Origin: Oscillospiraceae bacterium
Lineage (GTDB): Bacteria; Bacillota; Clostridia; Oscillospirales; Oscillospiraceae
Direction: 5' to 3'
Length of the DNA: 35,272 nucleotides
NCBI GenBank assembly: GCA_902761635.1
Contig: CACWLG010000020.1
Coordinates: forward strand, 1 to 35,272
A model generated the notes under the pieces. The model had not been told where the DNA came from, ran no database searches, and was given only the letters and a program-made list of their open reading frames with translations. The translations under genes and the position numbers were made by a program. Positions 4,094-26,469 of this stretch are shown here, piece by piece. The stretch's first letter is position 1; each line of letters begins with the position of its first letter.

Positions 4094-4151
4094 AGCTGCA
4101 TGCTTCCTTCTTATAAAATTTCAGAATGTAACCGGGTTCGGTGCCTGCAAA

Positions 4152-6056: not shown

Positions 6057-6074
6057 ACTGTCATCGTCCTTTCT

Positions 6075-6087
6075 CTCCCTGTGGGAG
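6075..6087 (-). promoter_or_regulatory. Leader hairpin upstream of ribosome binding site (copy 1)
   Basis: Read on the minus strand, CTCCC-ACA-GGGAG is followed directly by AGAAAGGA, which serves the start at 6056. The same hairpin plus AGAAAGGA occurs before the genes starting at 18795 and 23611, with only the loop differing. Confidence 0.55.
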
Positions 6088-6149
6088 AACACAATGGGTT
6101 TACGGGTTTTCTGCTGTTTATGGATGTGTTTTTGCTTCCGGTAAATTCA

Positions 6150-8018: not shown

Positions 8019-8042
8019 TTGCTCCTCATTATTAATACGGCT

Positions 8043-8074
8043 AAACGATGGACCCGGAAATGGGCCCATCGTTT
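8043..8074. terminator. Symmetric intergenic hairpin between DUF4428 and GDPD genes
   Basis: AAACGATGG (8043-8051) pairs with CCATCGTTT (8066-8074), extended inwards by CCC/GGG across one mismatch. There is no clear U-run on the minus strand, so it may attenuate or stabilise the transcript rather than end it. Confidence 0.4.
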
Positions 8075-8091
8075 GCTTGAAATTCCCGTGT

Positions 8092-8739: not shown

Positions 8740-8774
8740 TTTTCTTCTCCTTTAATTCATGAAACCTTACACAA

Positions 8775-10496: not shown

Positions 10497-10542
10497 CTTG
10501 CCAGTTCCTTTCCTAATAGAATCAGCCGGTTCGCTTTTCGGC

Positions 10543-12246: not shown

Positions 12247-12321
12247 CTTGTCAGTTCCTTTCCGTATGGGTTTGGGTTTTGCTGTGAGGGAACAATTTTT
12301 GCAGAAAAAGTAAACCAGCGC

Positions 12322-12403
12322 GTAGGGGCTGATGCCCTCATCAGCCCGAAGCCCTGTGGGTTATGGCCTGTTCGACGGGGCGATCCGGGGATCGCCCCCT
12401 ACG
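12322..12403. repeat. Hairpin-ended short repeat element, 82 bp
   Basis: It begins CGTAGGGGC and ends with the complement GCCCCCTACG. Each end is itself a hairpin: GGGCTGATG/CATCAGCCC and GGGGCGATC/GATCGCCCC. A related element lies at 14579-14690. There is no coding capacity, which fits a non-autonomous MITE-like or bacterial interspersed repeat common in Oscillospirales. Confidence 0.75.
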
Positions 12404-12421
12404 ACATTCTTACTCTCCCGC

Positions 12422-14485
12422 TTACCAGACCGTGATCCTGTCGGCCGGGGCGGTGTACATGCCGTCGCCCTCCTGCACGCCGAAGGTCTCATGGAACTTC
12501 TCGAAGTTCGACAGGGGGACGTTGCAGCGGGAGTATTCCACCGGGTGCGTCTCATTGGCGAGAGTGGGCAGCTCCGCGGCGGCGTAGCGCGCGTTCTTCT
12601 GAATAATGGCAAGCTGGGTGAAGAACATCTCATAATCGAAGTTCTCCTGCTTGGCCGCGATGGAGAGCAGGCACTTGAGCGAGCCGAGGTCGGAGATGGC
12701 CTCGCCGCTGACGCGATTTGCGCCTTCCTCGCCGTAGGGCTCGTCGGAGAGCTCGGGCGCGGGAACGAAGTCCCTGTACCAGGCCTTGAGCTTCTCTACG
12801 CGCTCATGGAACTCGGCCGTGTCCTCTTCCGCCCACCAGTCCTTGTAATTGCCGTCCTTGTCAAAGGTGGCGCCGAGATCGTCAAAGGCATGGGTGATCT
12901 CATGACCCACGACCATGCACACGCCGCCGAGCTTCTTCTCCAGCGGCCAATCCGCCTGGTAGTAGTCGCCGCCGCAGATACCGGCGAAGACGTTGATGGA
13001 GTTCTCGGTCGGGACGTAGCAGGCGGCGAGGGTGCTGTAGTAGTTGTCAAACTTCCAGTAGGTGCCGTCGTTGCGGCGCTGAACGACCTCCGCCGCGATG
13101 CTGCGCCCGAAGATCCGCGCCGCCTTGATAGCGTCGAACAGGGTGCCGCCCTCCTCGGCGGACTTGATCGTGAGACTGCCGACGTCCGGCAGATTATCGG
13201 GGTAGCAGACATTGATCTTGATGTTGTCAAGCTTCTCGATGGCAGCCGTCTTGGTCGCGTCGGAGAGCCAGTCCTCTTCCCGCAGCATCTCGCGGAAGGC
13301 GTCGATCATCATGACGGTGAGATCGTAAATCTGGGGCTTGATGCTCTTATCGAAGCAGTACTCCACATAGACCTCGTCGACCAGGGAGGGGACGAGAGCG
13401 GTGATGGTCTTCATGGCGTAGACCTCGTCCGGGGGCAGGGTGTCGACGCCGGTCATCGGGGCCTGGAGCAGAGTCGTCTCCGCAAAGGTCTCTCTGTCGC
13501 AGTAATTGGTAAACTCCGCTATCGTGTGCGTCAGTACCCAGGCCTTGAGCTTGTCCAGGTTTTCGTCGGTGTACTGCGCGTCGATGCAGCCTATGACATC
13601 GGGCATCATGATCCCGACCAGATGGCCGTCCAGATCAAAGCCCAGCGCCTTGTAAATATCACAAAGCGGGTAATTCTTATACATGTCGCGGATCTCGTCG
13701 GTGGTAAAGCGCTGGGAGAAGACATCCACAGTCCCCTTGCCTTCCATCTTCTTTTCCATAGCCTCCATGCCGGGCAGGAAACCGCGCTCAAAGTCCATGG
13801 CCTTGTCAAAGAGCTCCTTTGCCTCACTCTCGCTGCAGCCGAGCTTGCGCAGCATGTATTCGCAGAGCTGTCTGTTGACCGCGATGGCGGGGTTTTCTTC
13901 GTCGCCCGCCTCATAAGCGGACGGATCGTCGCTGAACATGGCGGGCGTCATGATGTACAGGATATTGGTAAAGGCATCCTCGGTATTGCCCAAGACCATA
14001 TCCGTGACCATCGGTGTGCCGAAGAGGTTGCGCTGGGGGTCAGAGAGGAACGCGGTCATCTCCTCGACGGAGCTGAGGCCCATCAGATCCTCGACAAAGG
14101 GCTTCAGGCCGTCAAGGCCCGCCGCGTTGCGCGCGTCCCAGTCCAGCAGGAGGGCATAGAGGTTCTGCAGGCTCGTCAGCTTCGCGTCGTCCTTTTTTTC
14201 GCCGCTGATGAGCGCGATCTTCTCACGGTTGATCTCGTCCGTATGTTCCGTTCTCGCCGAGACGTTGGCTTCGCCGTCGTTGATTTTGGCGCTCTCCGCC
14301 CATTCGCGGTTCACAGCGGCCGCAAAGTCGTCCTGCGGGCGGATCTCGCCCTTGCCCTCATAGACGCCGTAGATGCCGGAATCGATCCAGGCGGCGCCGG
14401 GGCGCTCGCCCTCGGCCGCAAAGGCCGGGACGCCCAGGGACAGCACCATGGTAAGCGCGAGGAGGATGCAGAGCAGTTTTTTCAT
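12422..14485 (-). CDS. Secreted M13-family zinc metallopeptidase (neprilysin/PepO type)
   Basis: 687 residues from the ATG at 14485, which has GGAAAGGAAC upstream and opens a signal peptide (MKKLLCILLALTMVL...AFA). An upstream extension would run through a hairpin repeat and is rejected. The N-terminal M13 domain (about 30-480) is followed by the catalytic core: NSINVFAG (the family's N-A-Y/F-Y region), GHEITHAFDD with zinc ligands His528 and His532 and catalytic Glu529, and GEAISDLGSL with third ligand Glu595 and Asp599. The length fits bacterial M13 oligopeptidases, which cleave short peptides. The protein should be exported. It is flanked by S41-like genes; its first 23 codons match theirs although the enzymes are unrelated. 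Confidence 0.93.
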   Translation of the reverse strand: MKKLLCILLALTMVLSLGVPAFAAEGERPGAAWIDSGIYGVYEGKGEIRPQDDFAAAVNREWAESAKINDGEANVSARTEHTDEINREKIALISGEKKDDAKLTSLQNLYALLLDWDARNAAGLDGLKPFVEDLMGLSSVEEMTAFLSDPQRNLFGTPMVTDMVLGNTEDAFTNILYIMTPAMFSDDPSAYEAGDEENPAIAVNRQLCEYMLRKLGCSESEAKELFDKAMDFERGFLPGMEAMEKKMEGKGTVDVFSQRFTTDEIRDMYKNYPLCDIYKALGFDLDGHLVGIMMPDVIGCIDAQYTDENLDKLKAWVLTHTIAEFTNYCDRETFAETTLLQAPMTGVDTLPPDEVYAMKTITALVPSLVDEVYVEYCFDKSIKPQIYDLTVMMIDAFREMLREEDWLSDATKTAAIEKLDNIKINVCYPDNLPDVGSLTIKSAEEGGTLFDAIKAARIFGRSIAAEVVQRRNDGTYWKFDNYYSTLAACYVPTENSINVFAGICGGDYYQADWPLEKKLGGVCMVVGHEITHAFDDLGATFDKDGNYKDWWAEEDTAEFHERVEKLKAWYRDFVPAPELSDEPYGEEGANRVSGEAISDLGSLKCLLSIAAKQENFDYEMFFTQLAIIQKNARYAAAELPTLANETHPVEYSRCNVPLSNFEKFHETFGVQEGDGMYTAPADRITVW

Positions 14486-14578
14486 TTGGTCAGTTCCTTT
14501 CCTTACTACTAAAATATGAAATTTAAAAAACAGAATTTGGGTCTCGGGTTTATTCAGCAAACAACCAACACGCACACC

Positions 14579-14690
14579 GTAGGGGCCGTTCACGAACGGC
14601 CCGGCAGTACACGATCGGTTTTTCGGATTCGCCTGGGCGCATTCGCCGGACGCGGCCTCTGCCGTCGGGCGATTCGTGAATCGCCCCTAC
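14579..14690. repeat. Hairpin-ended short repeat element, 112 bp
   Basis: It begins GTAGGGGC and ends GCCCCTAC as a perfect inverted pair. Internal end hairpins are GGGCCGTTC/GAACGGCCC and GGGCGATTC/GAATCGCCC. It has the same architecture as 12322-12403. It fills most of the 292-bp gap between the M13 gene and S41-like paralog 5; I see no gene in that gap. Confidence 0.78.
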
Positions 14691-14777
14691 AGTCATACAG
14701 AGAAGCTTGCTGTGTCAGGCCGATACCCATAAAACAGAATACAGAATTTGCTTTATCAAAGGAAACGCCCGTTTCAA

Positions 14778-16577
14778 TCACGCGGCCTGTGCCAGGGATT
14801 CGCCGAAGAACTCGTTCATCAGCTCGCTGAGTGCGGCGAGATCATAGAAGCCGACGGTGGGATTCTCGCCGTCGCCCAGGAGATTGGCGTCCACGGGGCA
14901 GCCGTTGTCGATGCTGCCGCCCTCATCGTTGACGCCGATGCTGGACGCGGCGGAGTTGCGCATATCCATGCCGCCGACAGAGGAGTAGCGGATGGCGCAG
15001 GCGCCGCCGCCGCTCTGTTCGCCGAGGATCATGGCCCCGTGCTCATGCATGAACCAGGGGAAGTTGTTGCCGCAGGAGAAAGAGGCTTTGCTGGTCAGAA
15101 CGCCGTAGTTGTAGCCGGTATAGGGGCTCACGTCCTTGTCGTCAAAGACGCCGTCAAAGTTCATGTCGAAGTCCTGGTACTTGGTGTTGTACTGAGAGGT
15201 CAGCTCGTCCCTGTCGCGGACATAGCCGACGCCGGTCAGCAGCCACTCGACCGCGAGCAGCGCGGTGTCGTCGCCGCCGCCGTTGCAGGTGTCGTCGATG
15301 ATGATGTTCTTGATCGCCGGATTCTGCGCGGCGCGCTCCAGGCCGGAGAGGACGGTGCCGATGGTCTCCCAGGTTTCGCCGTCCTCATCGTCCTCGGTGA
15401 TCAGGGGACGCTCGCCCGTGCCGGCATAGAAGGCCTTCCAGCCGTCGTTGTCCACGGTGAAATGGTCAAAGCGGATGATGGCGGTGTCGCCCTGCTCAGC
15501 GTAGTAATCGCCGTTGTAGAGGGATTCGCGGGCCTCTTTGCACTGCGCCTTGCGCCCGTTCATGCCGTAGCTGAACTCGTAGTAGGATCCGCCGTACTCC
15601 TTGTCCATTACGTCATACATGATGCTGCGCGACAGCTCCAGATCGTCAAGCTGTACCACATAGGCGCCGATGCCGGTATGGCCGCCGTCAAAGAGCAGGC
15701 CGTTGTAAAGATGGCTCAGGCCCGTGTAGAAGTTCAGGAAATCGGTGGCGAGCAGCATCGCCTTGATCTCGGGGTACTTGGCAGAGAGGACCTCGTCCAG
15801 CGTCCCGTTCTCCAGATCGTCATGGATGTACTCCTGACCGGGATTGCCATGCCACAGATCCAGGCTGAAGCAGAGCTCGTTATAGGTGAATTTCGCCAGA
15901 TCCTCGGCGCGATCCGCCTTCACGGCGGGGAGGTAATCCGGGTCGTCCTCCATGGCGTAGTCCGGCTGGATTAGTCCCAGATAATCCTTGATGTAAATTT
16001 TCTCGCCCACATAGATGACCCAGTATCCGCCGGCGCTGGCGAAGATGTCGGCCAGGGTGGGCAGCGGCGCGTAAACGCCGGTGTCGTCGCCGCGCAGATG
16101 GATGTCGTAACCCGCAAGCTCAATGGTCTTCGGCGTCACCTCTTCGGGCTCGGTGACGTGGCGCGTTTTGGCAAAGGGGTAGTCCGGGTCGTAGCCGCCG
16201 GACTCCGTGAGCAGGAGGTCGTGGGCGGGCTCGATAAAGCGCTTCATGTCGTAGATCACGACGGTGTCGGTGTCTACGTCAAACACCGCCTTGTCGCCGA
16301 GGAAGTTCGTGACCGTGTAAACGCCGCCGTCACGCTTGAAGCTCATGCCCTCGGTCATGTCGGTGCCCGCCAGATAAAACCGGTTGTAGAAGTCCGTGAC
16401 GCTCATGTAGGGCACGTTGGGGAGATCCTCATAGAAGCGGACGGTCGCGGTCTCGGTGGTGTCCACTTTGTCCCGCACGACGGGCAGGGCTTTTTCCGTA
16501 TAGCTCTCCGCGAAGGCCGGGACGCCGAGCGTCAGCACCATCGTGAGCGCGAGAATCATGCAAAGCAGTTTTTTCAT
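14778..16577 (-). CDS. Secreted S41/tricorn-like protein, divergent paralog 5
   Basis: 599 residues, the most divergent of the set. Signal peptide MKKLLCMILALTMVL...AFA (1-23). It keeps the family order: DLPNVPYMSVTDF near residue 51, F-D-G-G-H-T (His300), AIIRFDHF, IIDDTCNGGG (about 426-435), an EF-hand-like loop DMNFDGVFDDKD (471-482), SFSCGNNFPW (Ser501) and GEQSGGGAC. The C-terminus differs: the FYDIDRGAEPD block is replaced by a region ending YDLAALSELMNEFFG. The DGGHT and SFSCGNNFPW forms resemble standalone clostridial S41 proteins more than its neighbours do, so it may be an older branch. A 14-bp-stem hairpin lies between it and the S15 gene 91 bp upstream. Confidence 0.82.
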   Translation of the reverse strand: MKKLLCMILALTMVLTLGVPAFAESYTEKALPVVRDKVDTTETATVRFYEDLPNVPYMSVTDFYNRFYLAGTDMTEGMSFKRDGGVYTVTNFLGDKAVFDVDTDTVVIYDMKRFIEPAHDLLLTESGGYDPDYPFAKTRHVTEPEEVTPKTIELAGYDIHLRGDDTGVYAPLPTLADIFASAGGYWVIYVGEKIYIKDYLGLIQPDYAMEDDPDYLPAVKADRAEDLAKFTYNELCFSLDLWHGNPGQEYIHDDLENGTLDEVLSAKYPEIKAMLLATDFLNFYTGLSHLYNGLLFDGGHTGIGAYVVQLDDLELSRSIMYDVMDKEYGGSYYEFSYGMNGRKAQCKEARESLYNGDYYAEQGDTAIIRFDHFTVDNDGWKAFYAGTGERPLITEDDEDGETWETIGTVLSGLERAAQNPAIKNIIIDDTCNGGGDDTALLAVEWLLTGVGYVRDRDELTSQYNTKYQDFDMNFDGVFDDKDVSPYTGYNYGVLTSKASFSCGNNFPWFMHEHGAMILGEQSGGGACAIRYSSVGGMDMRNSAASSIGVNDEGGSIDNGCPVDANLLGDGENPTVGFYDLAALSELMNEFFGESLAQAA

Positions 16578-16606
16578 GTACTTATGTCCTTTCCTGTTTT
16601 TGGCTC

Positions 16607-16642
16607 CCTGTCATGGCTTCGTATCAGAGAAGCCATGACAGG
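16607..16642. promoter_or_regulatory. 14-bp perfect intergenic hairpin
   Basis: CCTGTCATGGCTTC (16607-16620) is perfectly complementary to 16629-16642, with an 8-base loop. It lies between the stop of the S15 gene and the ribosome binding site of paralog 5, with no U-run on the minus strand. It could be an mRNA processing or stability element. Confidence 0.5.
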
Positions 16643-16668
16643 CGGGCTGAATTGTGGGATTTCTCCTG

Positions 16669-18795
16669 TTACTGCGCGGTCTGGGGGAAGCGGAGCTCAA
16701 AGGCGGAGTTGTCGATGTTGAAGGAGTAAGTATCGCCGGACTGGGACGAGTCGGAGACGGCACCGCTGAAATAGTCCTCGTCGAGGAGGGCCCTGTAGGG
16801 GTCCCAGCCGGTCACGACCAGCACCGCCTTGTGTCCGGGCTGGAAGGTGTAGGAGCTGGGCTGGAGATAGATGGTGTAGTCGTAGTATTCGCCCGGCTTC
16901 ATCTCCTCCGTCTTTTTGGTGTAATCCCTGCCCTCATAGCCGCCGCCGTAGTCGGCCAGGTCGCTGTGGCCGAAGGTGATGAGCTTGGCGGTGGTGTTGC
17001 TCTGCACGAACTCGATCACCTTGGTTCTGCTGAGGCCGCCGCCGGTTTCCGTCACGCCGAGGGTGTGCTTCGGGAGGGTGTTGTTCATCCGCTCCTTGGT
17101 CATGTAGGCCTTGAAGGGTGTCTGGCCGTCGATGGTGTCGATGAGCAGGGCCGAGATCACCATGCCGTTCCCGCCCGCGTTTCGGGTGGAGAGTCTGAGA
17201 TGCACCTCGGGCACGCCGCAGAAGCTGTAATTCTCGGGAAGCTCAAATACATAGGTGCTGCACGCGCTCTGCGGCAGAGTAAGATAGTAATTGTCGCGGG
17301 AATTGGGTTTGCCCAGTTCGTCGGTCCCATCCTTATACTGGGCATAAAACGGGCCGATGGCGGTCGTGTCCACATGGGAGACGTCTTCGGGGTTCACGGT
17401 CTTGTCGTAGTCAAAGGTATCGTATGTAAAGTCGTCCCAGGTATCGTAGGTTTTGAACGAGCCGTCGAGGTTGCTCTGGACGCTGACCGTCGGCATGTTC
17501 TCGATGCCGTTGTCCACGCCGTAGAGATAGTGGCTGAGCCACTTGTTCATGATCTCCTGCCACAGCTCGCCGTTGACGACGACGCCGTTGAGGATGTTAT
17601 GTCCGTCCTGGTGCAGGACGAGCTTGAAGTTCTGCCCGGCCCTGGCAAAGGAGCGCGCCATCAGGTCGGACTGCTTGGTGCAGACGTTGAAGTCGTTCAT
17701 GCCGTGGACGATCAGCGCCGAGCAGTTGATCTTGCTTGCGTCTACCGAGTAGTCAAGCCGCGCCCAGATATCGTCATAATCGCCGTTGGTCGCCCGCTGA
17801 TCCTCCGAGAGCTGCCAGAGGAAGGAGGCGTAGTCGTCGTTGATGACCGTCCAGTCGTCGTCCAGGAAGGCCGCGCCGCTGTTGTAGAAGGCCAGGGTAT
17901 GCGCGTAGTCCGCCTCGTTATAGAGCGGCGCGCCCTGGGAGTTGGTGTACTCGTACCAGGAGGCGATGCCCGCGAAGGGGATGATGGTCTTGAGGCCCTC
18001 AACGCCGGAGGTGGCCACCTCAAAGGGCAGGGTGCCGCCGTAGGAGCAGCCCGTCATGGCGACATTGCCGTTGGACCAGTCGGCCGCGATTTCTATATTA
18101 TTATAAGGATCGGTGTAGGCTGTGCGCTTGCCCGCCAGCCACTCCACCACGCAGGCGTGGGCGTCCCGCTCCAGGTCGAAGCCGCAGAGCTCATAGCCTT
18201 CGGAGCCGTAGGTGCCGATGCCGCCCGCCTCCACCACGGCAAAGCCCCTGACAAGATAGTAGTCATAGGCCTGGGCGTAAATGTATCCGGGCATATTGGA
18301 GTAGGGCACCTTGTAATTCCAGACCGCCGGGTCAGCGATCGCCGCCGCCTCGAGAGTGGTCATGCTCCCGGCGGGGGTGCGCTTTTCACCGGGCTCATAG
18401 AGCCTGTTGTAATCAAAGGGGGCGGGATTGAGAAGCTGCGTGGGATCCATGCCGTACTCCTCCACGGTGCCCGCGCCGTAGGGGGTCGGGTCGTAGATCG
18501 TGCCGGCCTTATACACGCCCTCGGCCGCAGCACGGGGAACCTGAACCAGCGCCTCCACCAGATCGGCCTTGCCGTCGCCGTCGGTGTCATGATCGGTTTC
18601 GACATAAACGCAGAAGCGGAGGATGTCGCTGTCCTCATTTGTGTAGTTTTCGTCTCTCAGATTGCTGTACTGCAGGATGGGCTGGGCCGCGCCGTCCTTG
18701 AATACCGGCGCTTTCGCGGCTTCGTCCGCGAAGGCCGGAGCACCCAGGGCCAGCAGCATGGTCAGCGTCAGCAGGATGCAGAGCAGTTTTTTCAT
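16669..18795 (-). CDS. Secreted S15-family hydrolase (X-Pro dipeptidyl-peptidase type)
   Basis: 708 residues. Signal peptide 1-23 (MKKLLCILLTLTMLL...AFA). The alpha/beta-hydrolase core has the nucleophile elbow G-C-S-Y-G-G (Ser251), the acid in IVHGMNDFN (Asp368) and His399 in HQDGHN. The C-terminal beta region (about 440-708) is like the galactose-binding-type domain of S15/CocE enzymes. A canonical calcium loop DTDGDGKADLVE lies at residues 70-81. The family releases X-Pro dipeptides from peptide N-termini or hydrolyses related esters; an exported form would act on extracellular peptides. The leader has the CTCCC/GGGAG hairpin and the promoter has the shared direct-repeat site at 18961-18980, so this may be the first gene of the long downstream run. 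Confidence 0.9.
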   Translation of the reverse strand: MKKLLCILLTLTMLLALGAPAFADEAAKAPVFKDGAAQPILQYSNLRDENYTNEDSDILRFCVYVETDHDTDGDGKADLVEALVQVPRAAAEGVYKAGTIYDPTPYGAGTVEEYGMDPTQLLNPAPFDYNRLYEPGEKRTPAGSMTTLEAAAIADPAVWNYKVPYSNMPGYIYAQAYDYYLVRGFAVVEAGGIGTYGSEGYELCGFDLERDAHACVVEWLAGKRTAYTDPYNNIEIAADWSNGNVAMTGCSYGGTLPFEVATSGVEGLKTIIPFAGIASWYEYTNSQGAPLYNEADYAHTLAFYNSGAAFLDDDWTVINDDYASFLWQLSEDQRATNGDYDDIWARLDYSVDASKINCSALIVHGMNDFNVCTKQSDLMARSFARAGQNFKLVLHQDGHNILNGVVVNGELWQEIMNKWLSHYLYGVDNGIENMPTVSVQSNLDGSFKTYDTWDDFTYDTFDYDKTVNPEDVSHVDTTAIGPFYAQYKDGTDELGKPNSRDNYYLTLPQSACSTYVFELPENYSFCGVPEVHLRLSTRNAGGNGMVISALLIDTIDGQTPFKAYMTKERMNNTLPKHTLGVTETGGGLSRTKVIEFVQSNTTAKLITFGHSDLADYGGGYEGRDYTKKTEEMKPGEYYDYTIYLQPSSYTFQPGHKAVLVVTGWDPYRALLDEDYFSGAVSDSSQSGDTYSFNIDNSAFELRFPQTAQ

Positions 18796-18811
18796 GTGCC
18801 TTTTCCTTTCT

Positions 18812-18824
18812 CTCCCTGCGGGAG
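18812..18824 (-). promoter_or_regulatory. Leader hairpin upstream of ribosome binding site (copy 2)
   Basis: On the minus strand, CTCCC-GCA-GGGAG followed by AGAAAGGA, 16 bases before the ATG at 18795. It matches copy 3 (23627-23639) exactly. Confidence 0.55.
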
Positions 18825-18945
18825 TACGTGGATGGATTTGCGGCGGTCTGTTTTGGTGTGTTCCGGCTCAGGGGTATGCATATAAATAAAAATTATCCGC
18901 CAACATTCTGTCAACATCTTGCGGTCTGTCCGCATAGATAGAAGT

Positions 18946-18980
18946 ACTTTATCACAAGAAGCGCTCAAAACCGTCTCAAA
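18946..18980 (-). promoter_or_regulatory. Direct-repeat operator plus -10 box, site 1 (S15 gene)
   Basis: On the minus strand, TTTGAGACGGTTTTGAGCGC (18980-18961) gives two TTTGAG half-sites at 11-bp period. The second half-site, TTTTGAG, is followed after exactly 12 bp by TAAAGT (18951-18946), a plausible -10 box. No good -35 is present, which fits an activator-dependent promoter. The leader to the S15 start would be about 145 bases. Sites 2 and 3 share the layout. Confidence 0.65.
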
Positions 18981-19013
18981 TATTCCCAGCTTTTCCTAAA
19001 AAATGAAAAAAAG

Positions 19014-19036
19014 CCGGGGCGCAGGGCGCGTCCCGG
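19014..19036 (-). terminator. Rho-independent terminator of orphan response regulator
   Basis: CCGGGGCGC (19014-19022) pairs with GCGTCCCGG (19028-19036) around a 5-base loop. On the minus strand it is followed by CTTTTTTTCATTTTTT. It starts just after the stop at 19044 and is nearly the same as the terminator at 23723-23745. Confidence 0.85.
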
Positions 19037-19043
19037 ATAAAAT

Positions 19044-19841
19044 TTAAGAAATATTATGAAAATACAGCGTTCCCGCCGTCAGCTCCGCCCAGCTGTAGTT
19101 GGTCATATATTCGCCCCGATAGGTGTTGACCGAAGCCATATCGTCCTCCAGCATCCGGTAATAATCACAGTCCAGCATCTCCGGACGGATCGCGAGGTGC
19201 GCCCCGCGCCGGATCAGCACGTCCTCCATCCCGATCTGCCGCAGCGTCTCCCGCAGGTCGCCGACGAAGTTGCGGACGCGGTGCTTCGCGTTTTTCATGT
19301 CCGCGACGTCGCCCCACAGCGCGGAGATAATCTCCTCCGCCGTGCAGGACGCTCCCTTCCGGTCGACGAGATAGGCCAGCAGCTCTTTTGTCTGCCGCCG
19401 TGAGAATTTCAGCGGCTCTCCCTGCCAGAACACCTCGAAGCTGCCGAAGCACTGGACCCGCAGCCTCTTTGGCCGGTTGCCCGCCGTCGGCAGCGCTTCC
19501 AGCTCCGTGCGCACCTCATACGGCGTCAGCGGCTTCATGATGTAGCCCTGTGCTCGTACCCGGAAGGCGTCCAAGGCGTATTTGGGAATGTCCGTGACGA
19601 ATACCACCCGCGTGTCCGGTGAGGCCGTTTTGAGCGCGACGGCAAATTCCAGCCCGGACAGCCCCGGCATTTCGATATCGCTGAACACAATGTCCGGGCG
19701 CAGGCGTTTATCCCGGATGGCGGCCAGCGCATCGGCAGCCAGCGCAAAGCACATGAGCTTCGCCTCCGGCACAGCCTCCCGAATGGCCTGTTCCGTGTCC
19801 CGCAAGATCTTCGGTTCGTCGTCTATGGCAAAGATCAGCAT
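19044..19841 (-). CDS. Orphan response regulator with SARP/OmpR-like winged-helix output
   Basis: 265 residues from the ATG at 19841 (GAGAGAGGAAA upstream; earlier in-frame codons overlap the promoter). Receiver domain 1-115: acidic pair Asp7/Asp8, phosphoacceptor Asp55 in F-S-D-I-E-M-P-G, and Lys103 in I-M-K-P-L. The output domain (about 126-222) starts RLRVQCFGSFEVFWQGEPL and includes RRQTKELLAYL, the winged-helix layout of SARP/AfsR-type and OmpR-type regulators. The C-terminal tail (DCDYYRMLEDD...) recalls a start of a BTAD-like helical region. It is very similar throughout to the regulator at 23752-24552 but has no kinase beside it. Its own promoter carries direct-repeat site 2, suggesting auto- or cross-regulation. 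Confidence 0.88.
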   Translation of the reverse strand: MLIFAIDDEPKILRDTEQAIREAVPEAKLMCFALAADALAAIRDKRLRPDIVFSDIEMPGLSGLEFAVALKTASPDTRVVFVTDIPKYALDAFRVRAQGYIMKPLTPYEVRTELEALPTAGNRPKRLRVQCFGSFEVFWQGEPLKFSRRQTKELLAYLVDRKGASCTAEEIISALWGDVADMKNAKHRVRNFVGDLRETLRQIGMEDVLIRRGAHLAIRPEMLDCDYYRMLEDDMASVNTYRGEYMTNYSWAELTAGTLYFHNIS

Positions 19842-19887
19842 GGTGTTTCCTCTCTCTTCAGCAAGGGATGATCTGCTTTTCGCCATC

Positions 19888-19922
19888 ATCATAACACCCG
19901 GGGCGCTCAAAATAGTCTCAAA
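19888..19922 (-). promoter_or_regulatory. Direct-repeat operator plus -10 box, site 2 (orphan regulator)
   Basis: On the minus strand, TTTGAGACTATTTTGAGCGC (19922-19903), then 12 bp after the second TTTTGAG, TATGAT (19893-19888). The predicted transcript start is about 40 bases before the ATG at 19841. Spacing is the same as at sites 1 and 3. Confidence 0.68.
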
Positions 19923-19955
19923 TTCCCTGTTCTGGGCGAATTTTGTAAAAAAAAA

Positions 19956-19978
19956 CCGGGGCGTGGTTCACGCCCCGG
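19956..19978 (-). terminator. Rho-independent terminator of the 23.6-20.0 kb unit
   Basis: A perfect 10-bp stem, CCGGGGCGTG (19956-19965) with CACGCCCCGG (19969-19978), loop of 3, followed on the minus strand by a run of nine T. It lies about 75 bases past the stop at 20053 of S41-like paralog 6. Confidence 0.9.
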
Positions 19979-20052
19979 CAGGACACACTCGCATGGCCTG
20001 GTATTTTGTTCTGCGTTGACGTGCCGGGTCAGCGCAGGGCGCTCAGGGGGAA

Positions 20053-21831
20053 TCACTTTCCCAAAAGGCCGTTGATGTAATCCGTCATATATGCCCTGTC
20101 GTACAGCTGAGCGGGATTGGGAATGACATAATCCGGGGTCGCGCCTTGGTCGATGTCATAGAAAGAACCGTTCTTCATATAGGCCAGCTTTTTGAATCCC
20201 GAGATCTGGTACACGCATCCGTCAGCGGTGGTCTGACGGAAAACAACGCAGGCGCCTCCGGAAGAGGGCCGTCCGAGAAGCGTAACCCTGTCGGAATTCT
20301 TGAGAGCACAGGGCACCAGATTACCGCAGGAGAAGCTGACAGGCGATTCGATGCAGAACAGATTATAATCTTTCAGAGAATCCTTTTCATCAAACTGGCG
20401 GTCCAGGTTCAGATCCACCTTATAGTTTTCACATACAAGGGCACCGGACGCGGGATTCATCATGCTGATGGATGCGTCGCCAAGGAAAGCACCGATCACG
20501 AAAGCTGCCGCGTCCGCTTGGCCGCCTCCGTTGTTGGAAAGATCAAGCACGACATTCTCAATGGGACTGTTCTCCCGCGTGATCTGCTGATAGGCGTAGA
20601 GCGTCAGCGCAACCGTATCATCCAGATTGTCCTCCGCTTTCACGGTGTAATAATCCAGGTCATTAAACACAAAATCGTCAAAAGTGATGTATGCGGTATT
20701 GCCCACCTCTTCATAGGGCACAGCTCCGTCCGGGTAAACCGCATCTCTAATCTCTTTGTACCTGGCCGCCTCATCAAATCTATGCATGCACGAGGGACCC
20801 CAGTTGCGTTTCACGGCGTCCTTCATCATGTAAGACGCTCTGACCCCACCGCTGTGTCCATCGTCGAAATACTTGCAGCAAAGATCTGCGAGAGCCTGTC
20901 CCGCTTCCTGCGGGTCCTTGCTCAGCAGCGGCACAGCCAGGCCCGTCGACTGGAACAGATTGTTGAAATCCGTAATATTGTGCTGCGCCTTCAGGCCGTA
21001 GAGGGCATCAAGCGCCAGGCAAAGTTCCTTATAGTTGAAGGCGATCAGGTCGTCGCTTCTCTCTTCTGGCACAACAGAGGGATAAAAGGCATCTTCCAGA
21101 TAATCCGGTCTCCCGATATACACAAGGCATACCGCTTCCGTGTTATACACGACATTGCCGCCGTAGTTCGTCAGGATGAAATCGCTGATCAACTGCAAGG
21201 GTACATAATACTCATCATCCTGATAAACAAGATCGATGCCGTAATCACCGGGCTTCAGTGTGAGCGGATCTCCATAGCGTTCAAAGGAAGTATCGCTCTT
21301 CTGGAACAGGGCCGGTTCACCGTTTGCATCGTAACCGCTGGATGCGATGACGTCCATGAGAGGCGCATCCGGGGAAATCTTGATAAACGCGTCATAGTCG
21401 TAGAATTCAATGGTATTCTCGGCAAAATTGATCCTGACGGGATAGCGGTTCTCTCTGGTCAGAATGACGATGTCACCTTTTTTTTCGATCTCAAGATCAT
21501 AGCTTTTCCCGCCTTCGGAGGCTTTCGCCAGAGAAATCCAGCGATAGAGCATTTCCTTCATGGTCTCCAGGGAGACATATGGCACGTTCGTCTCCCCGTC
21601 CAGAAAGGCGAGTTCGATTTCAAAGGTGGAATCCGCATCCGAAAAGCCCTGGTACAGGGGCACCGTCTTTGTTTCGATCTGATAGGTATGCTCGTCTACG
21701 GTAAACAACTCGCCGCTTCCCAGCTTTTCGAGCAGCGACTTGTTCTCATCGTTCGTTTCGTCTGCAAACGCAGCTGCGGACAAAGTGAAGAGCAGAAGCG
21801 CAGCCAGCAGAATGCTCAGGATTCTTTTCAT
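20053..21831 (-). CDS. Secreted S41/tricorn-like peptidase paralog 6
   Basis: 592 residues from the ATG at 21831, where the signal peptide MKRILSILLAALLLF...AFA begins and AAGGAGG stands 10 bases upstream. An extended N-terminal region (about 24-60) is not found in paralogs 3-5. Motifs are F-D-D-G-H-S (His326), YITFDDF, LDLSNNGGG, an EF-hand-like loop DLNLDRQFDEKD (473-484), SFSCGN (Ser501), GRPSSGGAC and DQGATPD. The last two differ from the GRTSGGG and DRGAEPD of the others. Codon and base use look slightly less GC-rich than in paralogs 2-5. It follows paralog 7 by 34 bp and ends at a strong terminator, giving a two-gene unit driven from site 3. Confidence 0.85.
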   Translation of the reverse strand: MKRILSILLAALLLFTLSAAAFADETNDENKSLLEKLGSGELFTVDEHTYQIETKTVPLYQGFSDADSTFEIELAFLDGETNVPYVSLETMKEMLYRWISLAKASEGGKSYDLEIEKKGDIVILTRENRYPVRINFAENTIEFYDYDAFIKISPDAPLMDVIASSGYDANGEPALFQKSDTSFERYGDPLTLKPGDYGIDLVYQDDEYYVPLQLISDFILTNYGGNVVYNTEAVCLVYIGRPDYLEDAFYPSVVPEERSDDLIAFNYKELCLALDALYGLKAQHNITDFNNLFQSTGLAVPLLSKDPQEAGQALADLCCKYFDDGHSGGVRASYMMKDAVKRNWGPSCMHRFDEAARYKEIRDAVYPDGAVPYEEVGNTAYITFDDFVFNDLDYYTVKAEDNLDDTVALTLYAYQQITRENSPIENVVLDLSNNGGGQADAAAFVIGAFLGDASISMMNPASGALVCENYKVDLNLDRQFDEKDSLKDYNLFCIESPVSFSCGNLVPCALKNSDRVTLLGRPSSGGACVVFRQTTADGCVYQISGFKKLAYMKNGSFYDIDQGATPDYVIPNPAQLYDRAYMTDYINGLLGK

Positions 21832-21865
21832 CAGAAATCTGCCTCCTTCATTGGAATGATATCGA

Positions 21866-23611
21866 TTAATCATTGGCATTCGAGGCCCAGTAAAGGCTGT
21901 TGATATAATCGGTCAGCGCCGCGCGGTCATAATACTCGTTCAAATCTGCGAGGACATAATCCGGATCAGCGCCGCGATCAACATTGTATAAAGATCCGTT
22001 CTTGAGGAAGGACAGCTGCCGGGGAGCGGAGATTTGGAAAGAGGTACCCCAGGCCGAGCAGCTGGGCAGGACATTGCAGGCACCGCCTCCGGAAGTACGC
22101 CCAATCAGGGTTACCTTTCCGGACTCTTTAAACATGCAGGGCACCAGGTTGCCGCAGGAGAAGCTGACGGGAGAGATCAGGCAGAACAGGTTCTTATCTT
22201 TAACGGTGTCGCTGTCGTCGAACTTGCGGTCACGGTTGGCGTCGCACCGGTAGGTAGAGGAGCACATGGCATGGGTCATAGTGTCCTTCATGCCGATGGA
22301 GGCCTCGCCCAGGAACCAGGCCATGGCAAAAATCGCAGTGTCGGCGTGGCCGCCGCCGTTGCAGCTCAGGTCGATGACCACATTCTCGATGGGGCTGTTC
22401 TCGCGGTTGATAAGGGCATGGGCCTTCATGATCAGACCGATGGTATCGGTGTCTTCAAAGTCCATCGGGTCTTCCACATGATAGAACTGATCGCCGTCCT
22501 GACCCTCGATATAGAATCTGTCAAAGGTGATATAGGCGGTGTTGCCGACTTCTTCATAACCGGGAACGCCGTCAGGATAATACTTCTCACGGGCTGCGAG
22601 CTGTTCTCTCTTTGCTTCGACCCACCGTGTTACCGAAGGTCCGTCAGGCACTTTTACATCGACTGGGCCGGCCAGATAGGAATAGGCATTCCAGTCGGAA
22701 TGGAGGTCGTCAAAGAAATCGGTGATCAGATGCCAGAGCGCTCTGTCCGCATATTCCGCGTTTGATCCTTTCAGCAGGCTCTGCAAACCGACATCATGGA
22801 AGAGCTGGTCAAAGCTCTCAATATCATGGGTGTCCTTCATACCGTACAAGTAGTCCAGCATCAGGCAAAGTTCGTTATAACCGTATTCCGCCAGGGCTTC
22901 GCTGCGCTCGCCGGTGGGGGCAGAATAGTAAAAGTCTGAGCAGAGCGTAGTGTTTGCAGAGAACATCAGGTCCTTTCCGTTGAAATATATGCCGGAACCG
23001 GGACCGGGCGCTACGATAAAGTCGGACATTGTCTGCAGCGGGATCAGGTAAAGGCCGTCTTGCCAAACCAGATCGATGCCGTAGTCTCCCAGAGGGAGCA
23101 CCACCTCATGACCGTACCGGGTGAGGGTGCCTTGGTCAAGCTTCTGCAAAGCAGCCGGCTCTCCCTCCGCATTAAACACGTCTATTCTGGTCAGATCCAG
23201 CATCGTAGAGCTGGAAGCCATCTTGCAAAACAGATTGTAGTCCACAAACGCAATGGTGTCCCTGTCAAAGTCAAGAACCATGGTTGCGCCGTTATCGTCG
23301 GCATTTTCTGCTGGGTTCTGACGGATATAGGTTACGACGGGGCCGTCCGCCTCCAGCGTAAAGCAGAGGCCTTTTTCAGAACTGCCGAGTATGAAGTCAT
23401 TGAGCAGGGACAGGAAGTCATTGGCCTCGATATAGGGCAGGTCCGCTGCACCGTCCAGGAAGTAGAGTTTCACATCCCTCCCGAGGCTGACGCTGTTGTG
23501 ATAGATGGGAAACGCGGCGCTGGTGATCTCATGCGCGTCCGCCGCAAAGGCCGGGACGCCGAGAGACAAAACCATCGTCAGCGCCAGGAGAATGCTGAGT
23601 ATTTTCTTCAT
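21866..23611 (-). CDS. Secreted S41/tricorn-like peptidase paralog 7
   Basis: 581 residues. Signal peptide MKKILSILLALTMVL...AFA (1-23). Motifs are DLPYIEANDF near 57, GLYLIPLQTMSDF near 186, FDDLHS (His304), YITFDRF, IDLSCNGGG, an EF-hand-like loop DANRDRKFDDSD (457-468), SFSCGN (Ser485), GRTSGGG and DRGADPD. It ends with a short extension, YWASNAND, after the NSLY terminus shared with paralogs 2 and 3. It is the first gene after the regulator/kinase terminator. Its promoter has direct-repeat site 3 and its leader has hairpin copy 3, so it is the clearest candidate target of the adjacent two-component system. Confidence 0.86.
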   Translation of the reverse strand: MKKILSILLALTMVLSLGVPAFAADAHEITSAAFPIYHNSVSLGRDVKLYFLDGAADLPYIEANDFLSLLNDFILGSSEKGLCFTLEADGPVVTYIRQNPAENADDNGATMVLDFDRDTIAFVDYNLFCKMASSSTMLDLTRIDVFNAEGEPAALQKLDQGTLTRYGHEVVLPLGDYGIDLVWQDGLYLIPLQTMSDFIVAPGPGSGIYFNGKDLMFSANTTLCSDFYYSAPTGERSEALAEYGYNELCLMLDYLYGMKDTHDIESFDQLFHDVGLQSLLKGSNAEYADRALWHLITDFFDDLHSDWNAYSYLAGPVDVKVPDGPSVTRWVEAKREQLAAREKYYPDGVPGYEEVGNTAYITFDRFYIEGQDGDQFYHVEDPMDFEDTDTIGLIMKAHALINRENSPIENVVIDLSCNGGGHADTAIFAMAWFLGEASIGMKDTMTHAMCSSTYRCDANRDRKFDDSDTVKDKNLFCLISPVSFSCGNLVPCMFKESGKVTLIGRTSGGGACNVLPSCSAWGTSFQISAPRQLSFLKNGSLYNVDRGADPDYVLADLNEYYDRAALTDYINSLYWASNAND

Positions 23612-23626
23612 ATCGTTTTCCTTTCT

Positions 23627-23639
23627 CTCCCTGCGGGAG
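23627..23639 (-). promoter_or_regulatory. Leader hairpin upstream of ribosome binding site (copy 3)
   Basis: On the minus strand, CTCCC-GCA-GGGAG followed by AGAAAGGAAAA before the ATG at 23611. From the predicted -10 box, the transcript would start only a few bases before this hairpin. Confidence 0.55.
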
Positions 23640-23653
23640 TATGAATTTTATTG

Positions 23654-23688
23654 ACTATAACACGCAGAGCGCTCAAAACCGACTCAAA
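23654..23688 (-). promoter_or_regulatory. Direct-repeat operator plus -10 box, site 3 (S41-like paralogs 7 and 6)
   Basis: On the minus strand, TTTGAGTCGGTTTTGAGCGC (23688-23669), then 12 bp after the second TTTTGAG, TATAGT (23659-23654). This -10 box is the best of the three. The half-site period is 11 bp, one helical turn, as expected for two winged-helix subunits bound head to tail. Confidence 0.7.
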
Positions 23689-23722
23689 AACCCCCGGTTT
23701 TTGCCTGTGCCGGTAAAAAAAT

Positions 23723-23745
23723 CCGGGACGCAGGCCGCGCCCCGG
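23723..23745 (-). terminator. Rho-independent terminator of the kinase/regulator operon
   Basis: CCGGGACGC (23723-23731) pairs with GCGCCCCGG (23737-23745), one G-U pair in the RNA, followed on the minus strand by ATTTTTTTACC. It begins 6 bases after the stop at 23752. Confidence 0.87.
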
Positions 23746-23751
23746 AAAATC

Positions 23752-24552
23752 TTATGTCAGCTCGTGAAAATACAGCGCCCCCGCCGTCAGCTCCGCCCAG
23801 CTGTAATTGCTCATGTACTCGCCCCGGAAGGCGTTGACCGCCGCCATATCGCCCGCCAGCATCCGGTAATAATCGCAGTCCAGCAACTCCGGGCGGATCG
23901 CGATATGCGCCCCGCGGCGGATCAGCACATCCTCCATCCCGATCTGCTTCAAAGTCTCCCGCAGATCGCCGATAAGATTGCGAATGCCGTGCTTGGCGTC
24001 CTTTCTGCCGCTGCTGTCGCCCCACAGCGCTGAGACCAGCTCCTCCGACGTGCAGGCCGCGCCCTTGCGGTCAATGAGATAGGCCAGCAGCTCCTTCGTC
24101 TGCCGCCGCGCAAATTTCAGCGGCTCCCCCTGCCAGAACACCTCAAAGCTGCCGAAGCACTGCACCCGCAGTCTGTTCGTCTGCGGCTTCGGCGCCGTCG
24201 GCAGCGCGTCCAGCTCCTCCCGGACAAGCTCCGGCGTCAGGGGCTTCATGATATAGCCCTGGGCCCGCACCCGAAAGGCGTCCAGCGCATATTGGGAAAA
24301 GGCCGTGACGAAGACCACCCGCGTGTCCGGAGAGGCCGTCTTGAGCGCGACAGCAAACTCCAGCCCGGAGGCGCCGGGCATCTCAATATCGCTGAACACA
24401 ATGTCCGGGGACAGGCCACCGGTTCGAATGGCGTCCAGCGCGTCGGCGGCCTTGTCGAAGGCTCTCAGCTCTGCGCCCGGCGCGGCTTCCTCGACGCAGC
24501 GGCAGAGTACCCGCAGGGCCTTGGGTTCGTCGTCTATGGCAAAAATCATCAT
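23752..24552 (-). CDS. Response regulator with SARP/OmpR-like winged-helix output
   Basis: 266 residues. Two adjacent ATGs are possible; 24552 gives the classic ATGA overlap with the kinase stop, with GGGAGG 10 bases upstream. Receiver: Asp7/Asp8, phosphoacceptor Asp55 (FSDIEMPG), Lys in YIMKPLTP. Output: RLRVQCFGSFEVFWQGEPL, RRQTKELLAYLIDRKG and SALWGD, then DCDYYRMLAGD as in the orphan copy. Partner of the LytS-type kinase, which usually pairs with LytTR regulators instead; the winged-helix output is therefore a notable variation. Likely DNA target: the TTTGAG direct repeats upstream of 23611, 19841 and 18795 (inference from the SARP/OmpR habit of binding repeats about 11 bp apart). Confidence 0.9.
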   Translation of the reverse strand: MMIFAIDDEPKALRVLCRCVEEAAPGAELRAFDKAADALDAIRTGGLSPDIVFSDIEMPGASGLEFAVALKTASPDTRVVFVTAFSQYALDAFRVRAQGYIMKPLTPELVREELDALPTAPKPQTNRLRVQCFGSFEVFWQGEPLKFARRQTKELLAYLIDRKGAACTSEELVSALWGDSSGRKDAKHGIRNLIGDLRETLKQIGMEDVLIRRGAHIAIRPELLDCDYYRMLAGDMAAVNAFRGEYMSNYSWAELTAGALYFHELT

Positions 24553-25943
24553 CGCTTGTTCGCCTCCCTGGGCAGTGTGATGGTCACGGCGGTCCCCGCG
24601 CCCGGCGCGGATTCGACGCGCAGGCTGCCGCCGCACATCTGTGCAAGCCGCTCCCGCACGTTCTGGAGACCCACGTGGGATTTCCCCGGGTCCTTCTGCT
24701 GCTTTTCCGGATCAAAGCCGGGGCCGTTGTCGGTCACGGTGATCTCATAGCGGTCGACGTATTCCCTGGTGGAAATGACTACCTCGCCCCGGCCGTCGGC
24801 ATTGCCGCGCACGCCGTGACGCACGGCGTTCTCCACGATGGGCTGCAGGGTCAGGATCGGCAACGTAAAGGACTGGCACGGAATGTCATAGCGCACGCTC
24901 AGCTTGTCCTCGAAGCGCATCTGCTCCAGCGCGAGATACTCCCTGGTATGCTCCAGCTCTCTTGCGAAGGGGATGGGGGCGTTCGTCTGCAGGGCGTCCA
25001 TGTTCCCGCGCAGGTAATTGGCAAACTGCACCGTGGCCTCTTCCGCCTGAGCCGGGTCGGAGCGGCAGAGCGACTGGATCACCGTGAGGGCGTTATACAG
25101 AAAATGGGGCTGGATCTGGGTCATCATGATCTGAATGCGCTGCTCGGCCTGCAGCGCCCGCTCGTGCTCCCGCACGAACTGGAGATGCAGCCAGATATAA
25201 TTGATCACGCAGTCAATGACGGCGGCGAGGATAAAATAGGACACGGGCTGGTCGAAGTCATAGGTGTTGAAGTCCAGCGCCAGCGCCCCGATAATGAGCT
25301 CGAACATCAGTACCGGCAGCCAGGTTTCCCGGCGCGTCTCCGGCTCGAACACGCGCACCGTCAGCAGGAGCCAGTAGCTGAGGAGAAGCGCGCCGACATA
25401 GAAGCTCGTGTCAGACAGGGGGCCCCCGATGTAATGGTTTTCCCAGTTGATTCGAAAGCAGACGGGCGAAAACAGCGCCGTGGCGTATATTGCGGCATTT
25501 ATGCCCACGAGTGCCCAGACCCACCCGAATTTCTTCTCCGGCACCATGATGCGCAGAAAAAGCGCCAGCACCACCGGGCGCATGGCATAGCCGTAGATCG
25601 CCGTCAGCGTCCGCGCAAACAGCCGCGCCTGTCCGATCATCAGGCGGTATTCCAGATGATCCTGGAGCAAAAGGCTGAACACCACGGCGACAATGATCCG
25701 CATGATACGCTTGAGGTCGGGGCGGATATAGGCGTCGATGTTCACGATCACCGCCAGCAGGCCCAGCAGCGTCAGCGCGGGCAGCAGCGCAAGGGTCGCT
25801 ACATAGTTCTCGACTATGAAAACACACAGCTCGTGATGGTGAAAAACAAGCGCCCACACCGCGAACAGGATGGTCGCTGCGACCAGCACCGCAACGGCCG
25901 TTAACCTGCCGCGATTCTCTATCTCTTTCCGCTTAAAATCCAT
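24549..25943 (-). CDS. LytS/YehU-type sensor histidine kinase
   Basis: 464 residues from the ATG at 25943 (GAGGAGA 8 bases upstream). Residues about 14-250 carry several membrane segments. A short linker helix leads to the His_kinase (PF06580-type) domain with phosphoacceptor His280 in QIQPHFLYN, then the ATPase domain with N-box QPIVENAVRHG (Asn372), DNGPGF (Asp405, about 405-410) and the glycine-rich GLQNVRERL. No separate extracellular domain is obvious, so the signal is probably sensed in or near the membrane. It overlaps the regulator by 4 bp and has its own sigma-70 promoter, without the TTTGAG site, consistent with constitutive low-level expression of the sensor pair. Confidence 0.92.
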   Translation of the reverse strand: MDFKRKEIENRGRLTAVAVLVAATILFAVWALVFHHHELCVFIVENYVATLALLPALTLLGLLAVIVNIDAYIRPDLKRIMRIIVAVVFSLLLQDHLEYRLMIGQARLFARTLTAIYGYAMRPVVLALFLRIMVPEKKFGWVWALVGINAAIYATALFSPVCFRINWENHYIGGPLSDTSFYVGALLLSYWLLLTVRVFEPETRRETWLPVLMFELIIGALALDFNTYDFDQPVSYFILAAVIDCVINYIWLHLQFVREHERALQAEQRIQIMMTQIQPHFLYNALTVIQSLCRSDPAQAEEATVQFANYLRGNMDALQTNAPIPFARELEHTREYLALEQMRFEDKLSVRYDIPCQSFTLPILTLQPIVENAVRHGVRGNADGRGEVVISTREYVDRYEITVTDNGPGFDPEKQQKDPGKSHVGLQNVRERLAQMCGGSLRVESAPGAGTAVTITLPREANKR

Positions 25944-26005
25944 AGATCCGTCTCCTCGCTGCTGAGTTGCGCCCGCGCCGGGCACGGTCATGCTTCCCGC
26001 TTCTG

Positions 26006-26034
26006 AGTTTAGCAAGCTTCCGCATTTCTGTCAA
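26006..26034 (-). promoter_or_regulatory. Sigma-70 promoter of the kinase/regulator operon
   Basis: On the minus strand, TTGACA (26034-26029), 17-bp spacer, TAAACT (26011-26006). It gives a leader of about 55 bases to the ATG at 25943. Confidence 0.75.
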
Positions 26035-26194
26035 ATCCATAAACTGCAGCTTACACAGGAACGGGATACGGCCTTTTTCGCTCCAAAACCAGTGTTCTCA
26101 TCGTCAATATCTCCAAATCATTTTGATTTCTTCTTCAGGCCTCGCGGTTTGGAGTCGGGTCGGCAGGGCATACCGTTGGGAAAGAACTGTTTCC

Positions 26195-26252
26195 TGTAGA
26201 AAACACAAAATCCGAACCCGTCTCCCATAGGGAAGATCTTGTTCGGATTTTG
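26195..26252 (-). terminator. Terminator of the tRNA-Leu locus
   Basis: CAAAATCCGAAC (26206-26217) is perfectly complementary to GTTCGGATTTTG (26241-26252). On the minus strand the stem is followed by TGTTTTC. It lies immediately downstream of the tRNA 3' end and probably belonged to the original tRNA gene. Confidence 0.7.
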
Positions 26253-26258
26253 TTGGTT

Positions 26259-26314
26259 TGGTGCGCGAGGCGGGACTTGAACCCGCACGTCCGGAGTGGA
26301 CACTAGAACCTGAA
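26259..26314 (-). other. attachment site: 3' half of tRNA-Leu(CAG)
   Basis: Read on the minus strand: anticodon loop TTCAGGT (26314-26308), 3' anticodon stem, long variable arm (GTCC...GGAC), T-arm GCGGG-TTCAAGT-CCCGC, acceptor strand CTCGCGC, discriminator A and encoded CCA (26261-26259). The 5' half is absent: the bases to the right of the loop neither pair with the anticodon stem nor give a D-arm. This is the displaced 3' copy left when an element integrates into a tRNA gene. The orientation places the element to the right and the intact tRNA beyond the window. Confidence 0.85.
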
Positions 26315-26337
26315 TTAGATTTGGACCGTTACGGCAT

Positions 26338-26469
26338 GTGTCGCATAGTGTCGCCAAGTACCCCTCAAACCGTTGAAAATACTAGCTTTTTTGAACTTTT
26401 CGCCCGTAAATCCAGCACCCGCGCCAGATGCAAAAAATCAACAGTTCGTTGGATGTTTGTTGGATGTTT
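26338..26469. repeat. Direct repeats beside the attachment site (possible integrase arm sites)
   Basis: GTTGGATGTTT occurs twice without a spacer (26448-26458, 26459-26469), and GTGTCGC twice at 10-bp period (26338-26344, 26348-26354). Short direct repeats next to a tRNA attachment site are typical of tyrosine-recombinase arm or accessory sites. The rest of the 25,944-26,582 gap shows no gene. Confidence 0.5.

Follow-up and report, generated by a model that had tools for sequence, protein, structure and literature searches.

A tandem-repeat operator and its candidate SARP-like regulators at peptidase genes of an Oscillospiraceae bacterium

The locus and its repeated operator

The stretch of DNA analysed here, referred to as the window, comprises 35,272 nucleotides of contig CACWLG010000020.1 from an Oscillospiraceae bacterium with relatives among rumen species (assembly GCA_902761635.1), and carries on its minus strand a 20-bp element that occurs three times in front of genes. 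Judged from sequence, this element is very probably the activator operator of a small positive regulon, run by regulators that join a receiver domain to a SARP-like winged helix. Read along the minus strand, the locus consists of a promoter-like site, a sensor histidine kinase gene (HK), the response regulator gene RR2, a hairpin, operator copy 3, a pair of S41 peptidase genes, a second hairpin, operator copy 2, the response regulator gene RR1, operator copy 1 and an S15 peptidase gene.

All of these genes lie on the minus strand. HK (24549..25943; PF06580, PF02518) overlaps RR2 (23752..24552), and its probable start at 25943, an ATG with a ribosome-binding-site-like stretch, replaces position 26015 of the list of open reading frames. 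RR2, which adjoins the kinase, and RR1 (19044..19841), which has no adjoining kinase gene, both consist of a receiver (PF00072) and a SARP-like winged helix (PF00486). The first S41 gene of the pair occupies 21866..23611 (PF03572, 6.5e-11) and the second 20053..21879 (PF03572, 4.2e-13), the true start of the latter probably being an internal ATG near 21831, as judged by eye from its signal peptide. The S15 gene (16669..18795; PF02129, 3.5e-40; PF08530, 1.2e-9) encodes an X-Pro dipeptidyl-peptidase-like protein with a signal peptide recognised by eye. Pfam, with REC and Trans_reg_C in the response regulator, thus bears out the first-pass annotation, which had placed an S15 hydrolase, a response regulator and an S41-like pair behind the three sites. 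Terminator-like hairpins were recognised in the sequence between RR2 and operator copy 3 (23722..23746, minus strand) and between the S41 pair and operator copy 2 (19955..19979, minus strand).

The three operator copies are exact and stand in the direction of the genes, as first described: copy 1, TTTGAGACGGTTTTGAGCGC, at 18961..18980 before the S15 gene; copy 2, TTTGAGACTATTTTGAGCGC, at 19903..19922 before RR1; and copy 3, TTTGAGTCGGTTTTGAGCGC, at 23669..23688 before the S41 pair, all on the minus strand. Each reads TTTGAG-N4-TTTTGAG, so that TTTGAG recurs at 11 bp, and each is followed on the same strand by a -10-like hexamer identified by pattern: TAAAGT (18946..18951), TATGAT (19888..19893) and TATAGT (23654..23659), respectively. 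The gap to the hexamer is 12 bp counted from TTTTGAG, or 9 bp counted from the end of the 20-mer; both the 11-bp repeat and the constant 12-bp gap were therefore found as the first-pass annotation had them. The pattern with its -10 gave no match in 100 shuffles of the window, and the 20-mer at up to three mismatches was seen four times, against a shuffle mean of 0.12; the fourth copy, with two mismatches, lies on the plus strand inside the RR1 coding sequence (19618-19637).

The absence of a -35 box, likewise claimed at first, also holds. At the five exact sites of the genome, described below, hexamers lying 15-19 bp ahead of the -10 agree with TTGACA at no more than 3/6 positions, and a sigma-70 consensus scan of 18600-26400 listed none of the three operator promoters among its 8 hits (4.0 expected in shuffles). 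The promoter-like site of HK-RR2, TTGACA-17-TAAACT (26006..26034, minus strand), ranked joint first in that scan with 10/12, and no operator copy was found in front of HK-RR2, a point missed in the first-pass annotation. The missing -35 box is the one piece of sequence evidence that would point to transcription depending on a bound regulator.

Sites across the genome and the genus

A draft of the genome (3.59 Mb, 86% complete) was scanned with TTGAGN5TTTGAGN12TANNNT, which gave five sites at zero mismatches, none at one and twelve at two. Up to three mismatches, 129 matches were counted and the reversed control gave 101, which suggests that the weaker ones arise by chance; a stricter pattern returned the same five sites. 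The many matches unrelated to promoters that the first-pass annotation had named as evidence against its proposed regulon are thus absent at zero or one mismatch, and the regulon appears small: all five exact sites have a -10 and a gene behind them, and three of the five precede peptidase-type genes. A one-mismatch site at C2:33356 was dismissed, lying as it does inside an open frame with no -10.

Two of the five sites lie beyond the window on other contigs, with the same 12-bp gap. About 60 bp past the -10 at C5:10372 starts a short, apparently secreted open reading frame of 93 amino acids with a signal-peptide-like beginning, for which Pfam gave no hit, and about 77 bp past the -10 at C8:106278 starts a 304-amino-acid membrane peptidase of the Rce1/CPBP type (PF02517, 1.8e-19). 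Among the five promoters the likeness is confined to operator, spacer and -10: mean identity is 0.23-0.34 in the flanks, 0.58 in the spacer and 0.73 at the -10 position; that of the operator, 0.86, arises in part from selection.

In a sample of 102 genomes of the genus, many of them incomplete, TTGAGN4TTTTGAGCG occurred 29 times in 14 genomes and the reversed pattern once; we calculate that a 14-base pattern would yield about two matches by chance in such a sample. Relatives of RR2 at E 1e-70 were found in 18 of the 102. All ten genomes whose RR2 relative reaches 75% identity or more (partial genes in two of the ten) carry the site, against 4 of the 92 others (Fisher p 5e-11, uncorrected for relatedness); for the wider set at E 1e-70 the figures are 11 of 18 against 3 of 84 (p 5e-8, likewise uncorrected). 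TANNNT stands at exactly 12 bp in 22 of the 29 occurrences, and in 21 of the 25 from the ten regulator-bearing genomes. Three genomes with no regulator at E 1e-70 carry the motif (G100, G027 and G005; loci L103, L107 and L109); these were weighed as counter-evidence and set aside, since none has TANNNT at 12 bp.

The positions and targets of the sites are also retained. The site of operator copy 1, behind RR1, is found in 5/5 relatives whose RR1 is 75-77% identical to RR2; the -10 of operator copy 2 is identical in all six species compared, our own included; and the operator before S41 genes occurs also in G037 and G084. Sites are kept in other species whose flanking sequence has diverged. RR1, S15, S41, the Rce1/CPBP-type gene and the short secreted open reading frame recur as targets in the genus. 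The place behind RR2 that the S41 pair holds in the window is taken in G061 by the Rce1/CPBP unit and its operator, and in G071, whose regulator is 57% identical, a site precedes a membrane protein resembling the kinase. At L104 (G069:C70:7360-7377) an operator copy with no -10 stands before a gene that by eye is amidohydrolase-like, and is possibly a promoter going out of use.

Beyond the genus, 400 genomes of the family (10 from the same genus and 390 from 105 others) yielded the exact operator with its -10 in our own genome and once in G398, the latter, as a single hit, being taken for chance. The reversed control was absent among the matches listed, and in the 390 genomes the search covered the operator and its -10 rather than the regulator.

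The regulators and their distant relatives

RR1 and RR2 are 76-77% identical, and their recognition helices are alike (KHRVRNF and KHGIRNL, respectively). Three further full-length relatives are encoded in the genome at 30-41% identity, and no site within two mismatches was found in the 3.4-3.8 kb loci around them. A comparison of RR2's DNA-binding half with PDB structures ranked AfsR first (8hvr, E 1e-4), then EmbR (0.039) and KdpE (0.073). The AfsR model matches residues 122-220 of RR1 at E 2e-8 and of RR2 at 6e-8, scoring about 32 bits where the cut-off is 1430. In the predicted structure (mean pLDDT 86.5, pTM 0.58) a receiver and a winged helix are followed by a short helical tail (residues 227-265), and BTAD was absent from the Pfam families listed at E ≤1 for 21 family members. 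With no BTAD and only this short tail, the regulators are best called SARP-like, in their working, and are not filed as SARPs. A fold search returned OmpR/PhoB-type regulators, a result that does not discriminate between SARP and OmpR.

Both RR1 and RR2 have a receiver with the phospho-acceptor aspartate. The RR1 orthologues of two relatives (L092 and L093, in G015 and G097) have lost this aspartate together with the conserved threonine and lysine, reading VAND, FSGIEMP, VFVAD and IISP where RR2 reads IDDE, FSDIEMP, VFVTA and IMKP. Because these receiver residues are changed, the two copies probably act independently of phosphorylation.

The position of the sites resembles that of SARP operators, as the first-pass annotation had suggested in pointing to SARP and OmpR-family proteins: 11-bp direct repeats here occupy the place of the -35 box. 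According to PMC10936776 and PMC4393881, repeats of the SARP class (AfsR) have a period of 11 or 22 bp and leave 8 bp between the 3' repeat and the -10, and in Streptomyces operators the 5' repeat lies over the -35 position of promoters with a poor or absent -35 box. The sites of AfsR (afs box) and OtcR are likewise 11-bp direct repeats with the 3' repeat near the -10; compared with the spacing rule of about 8 bp, the position here agrees and the distance is 12 or 9 bp, according to the point chosen as the end of the repeat. Unlike the Streptomyces SARPs, the regulators here are receiver proteins of about 266 amino acids with no detectable BTAD and mostly clostridial relatives, and three of their five targets are peptidase-type genes, not antibiotic clusters. 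In its letters, TTTGAGCG is similar to the SARP half-site of the TCGAGC type.

The OmpR/PhoB family shares the combination of receiver and winged helix, yet the DNA-binding half of RR2 is closer to AfsR than to KdpE, and classical OmpR proteins are not known to carry such C-terminal helices past the winged helix. RR_1586 of Clostridioides difficile recognises an 11-nt motif in direct repeat (PMC6222199), a likeness drawn from its description and not from a letter-by-letter comparison of protein and motif. In the same species CmrR and CmrT are two co-regulated OmpR-type regulators, one with an atypical receiver, and in this they are like RR1 and RR2; unlike here, CmrR recognises an inverted repeat and autoregulates its own operon (PMC12548384), and by this inverted repeat CmrR does not fit as a precedent. 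No description of operators or known targets of the present regulator family was found in open-licence PMC papers, subscription papers lying outside the search. Comparisons across the bacterium's relatives point to this little-studied, signal-responsive family as the probable binder of the operator.

At least 570 relatives of the regulators were found, mostly clostridial, of which 80 were kept for comparison; many come, by their titles, from ruminant gut genomes, and others from Faecalicatena orotica, Eubacterium, Treponema and Clostridioides difficile. Behind the regulator gene, a diverged repeat lies 12 bp before a -10 in 7 of 11 distant loci (45-60% identity; up to 5 of 15 letters changed, in a scan without a control), as in TCTGTGACGTTTTTGGG-12-TATAAT (G030) and TTTGTAACAGTTGTGAA-12-TATAAT (G039). 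Where helix and operator were both visible, the letters of the site vary with the recognition helix: R-N helices (KHGIRN, KHRVRN, KHAIRN, KHQLRN) pair with TTTGAG or TGTGAC sites, R-L/Q/V helices (KSRIRL, KARIRQ, NRIRV, KSHIRV) with TGTAA sites, and others (R-T, R-D) with TTTGCG-type sites, these pairs being chosen by eye from loci that were not all placed and with phylogeny uncontrolled. Three distant relatives (L195, L203 and L188) each have several copies of their own 11-bp repeat promoter within one locus.

The repeat was also sought with no regard to its letters. A scan of whole loci with a reversed-string control was not relied on, as period 11 was raised in the reversed strings too, and the test was therefore moved to the region behind the regulator gene, with other periods, regions displaced by +900 and shuffles as controls. 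Other periods and shuffles are the better controls, because the +900 region is probably mostly coding. Seventy-five regions of at most 260 bp were used (the four nearest and one too-short region were left out), and these are not fully independent because some come from related species. Exact 7-mers recurred at period 11 in 11/75 regions, against 0-5 at other periods from 7 to 30, a shuffle mean of 1.19 (largest 5) and 0/72 control regions; with a -10 added the count was 8/75, against 0-1 at other periods and 0.05 in shuffles (largest 2). For 8-mers with one mismatch, period 11 gave 19/75 (other periods 1-13; shuffles 5.96, largest 11; control 4/72), and with the -10 12/75 (other periods 0-2; shuffles 0.29, largest 3). 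Period 11 with a -10 occurred in 0/72 of the +900 regions. The proposed link between the site and this regulator family thus has two supports: the two co-occur in the genus, and period 11 stands out in a test blind to the repeat's letters.

Competing explanations and the proposed circuit

Several results weigh against an operator of this family. Seven of the 18 genomes with a regulator at E 1e-70 are without the exact motif, their regulators having diverged, and the genus sites were collected by motif, so that part of their similarity is by construction. Four of the 25 sites in regulator-bearing genomes lack a -10 at 12 bp (L098 has TATTAT, L105 TATTGT and L120 GATAAT, all at 11 bp, and L104 has none). 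Among the distant loci, L083, L085, L086 and L095 (4/11) lack the diverged repeat before a -10 in an uncontrolled scan allowing up to 5 of 15 changes. At the looser setting 63/75 regions have no period-11 pair before a -10; when no -10 is required, 19 regions have a pair at period 11, yet 13 have one at period 15 and 12 at period 12. In the whole-locus scan, 9-mers at period 11 were found in 22 of 76 real loci against 17 reversed, and 8-mers in 32 against 27. With these set against the genome, genus and letter-blind results, the site has a high probability of being the operator of these regulators, and is most likely an activator site.

Which protein binds it is the question on which an alternative retains most weight. 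The first-pass annotation had the two regulators sharing one operator, and this is plausible given the 76-77% identity of RR1 and RR2 and the similarity of their recognition helices. Less likely than not, but still a fair possibility, is that the operator is real and bound by RR1 only, by RR2 only or by another SARP-like regulator of the genome, the paralogue having other targets. The three more remote paralogues offer such candidates, and the loss of phosphorylation residues from RR1 in two relatives means that RR1 and RR2 are not equivalent there. Against an exclusive binder stand the similar helices, the co-occurrence of the site with RR2-like proteins and the lack of sites near the remote paralogues.

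Repression, with the regulator sitting on the promoter core and blocking polymerase, is unlikely. The site does overlap the core promoter, where repressors bind too, yet there is no -35 present to block, and PhoB bound at this position activates. The same holds for SARPs (PMC10936776).

It is very improbable that the element is instead a promoter class of an alternative sigma factor, with TTTGAG as its -35 and TATRGT as its -10. A fixed distance to the -10 and a fixed orientation would be expected of such promoters as well, but a -35/-10 spacer is usually longer than 12 bp, the element is built as a tandem 11-bp repeat whose letters change in relatives while its period stays, and the site tracks a DNA-binding regulator. 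Nor is there much to be said for recent duplication of gene blocks (regulator, terminator, promoter, peptidase) as the sole source of likeness between the copies: the two regulators are paralogous, and a regulator gene stands ahead of site 1 as well as of site 3, but the flanks of the five sites match far less well than the -10, sites persist where flanks have diverged, and two of them are on other contigs.

For an activator operator of the SARP-like regulators, the following circuit may be proposed. A regulator dimer would bind head-to-tail to the two TTTGAG half-sites, which at 11 bp lie on one face of the helix, and in place of a -35 box would recruit RNA polymerase to a -10 that is weak by itself. 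HK and RR2 would be produced from their ordinary promoter; HK, whose gene overlaps that of RR2, would phosphorylate RR2, and phosphorylated RR2 would turn on the RR1 and peptidase units. Its paralogue RR1, whose recognition helix is similar, would then strengthen the same promoters. A cascade or feed-forward loop of this kind is suggested because, of RR1 and RR2, only RR1 has the site; RR1 and the peptidase genes are probably turned on by HK-RR2. The sequences establish the sites, their spacing and missing -35 box, their specificity in the genome, their conservation and co-occurrence with the regulator, and the period-11 repeats before a -10 behind part of the family's regulator genes, whereas we infer that a regulator binds as a dimer, is phosphorylated and activates, and how RR1 and RR2 share the work.

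Past the S15 gene follow, on the same strand and in order, S41, M13, S41 and S41 genes, a gene for a 215-amino-acid protein, and GDPD, S41 and S41 genes. This same-strand row of S15, five S41, M13 and GDPD genes spans 2336-18795 (minus strand) and contains no further operator copy; operator copy 1 might drive a long operon across it. A leader element, CTCCC(G/A)CAGGGAGAGAAAGGA, stands directly before three peptidase genes (23619-23639, 18804-18824 and 6067-6087, minus strand) as a small hairpin merging into a ribosome-binding-site-like stretch; two of its three copies lie behind operators, and in G037 the stem is kept and the loop changed. The gaps of the row at 16578-16668, 14481-14777 and 12247-12421 hold strong palindromes, for example GGGGCGATTCACGAATCGCCC, which by eye resemble scattered repeat elements.

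Taken together, the observations allow a wider reading that seems to us evenly poised between right and wrong: a large, mostly clostridial family of receiver and SARP-like regulators may use one operator grammar, in which a tandem repeat of 11-bp period takes over the position of the -35 box and its letters change with the recognition helix. The clade of the window would use it in a feed-forward loop from kinase through RR2 to RR1 over peptidase genes, with RR1 a receiver-dead amplifier in two relatives. Should this grammar hold, finding a period-11 repeat directly ahead of a -10 close to a regulator gene would suffice to begin reading such a regulon from genome sequence, and differences between recognition helices could be paired with differences between operators. 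It would then provide, for Clostridia of the rumen and gut, a directly testable circuit for the control of peptidase genes.

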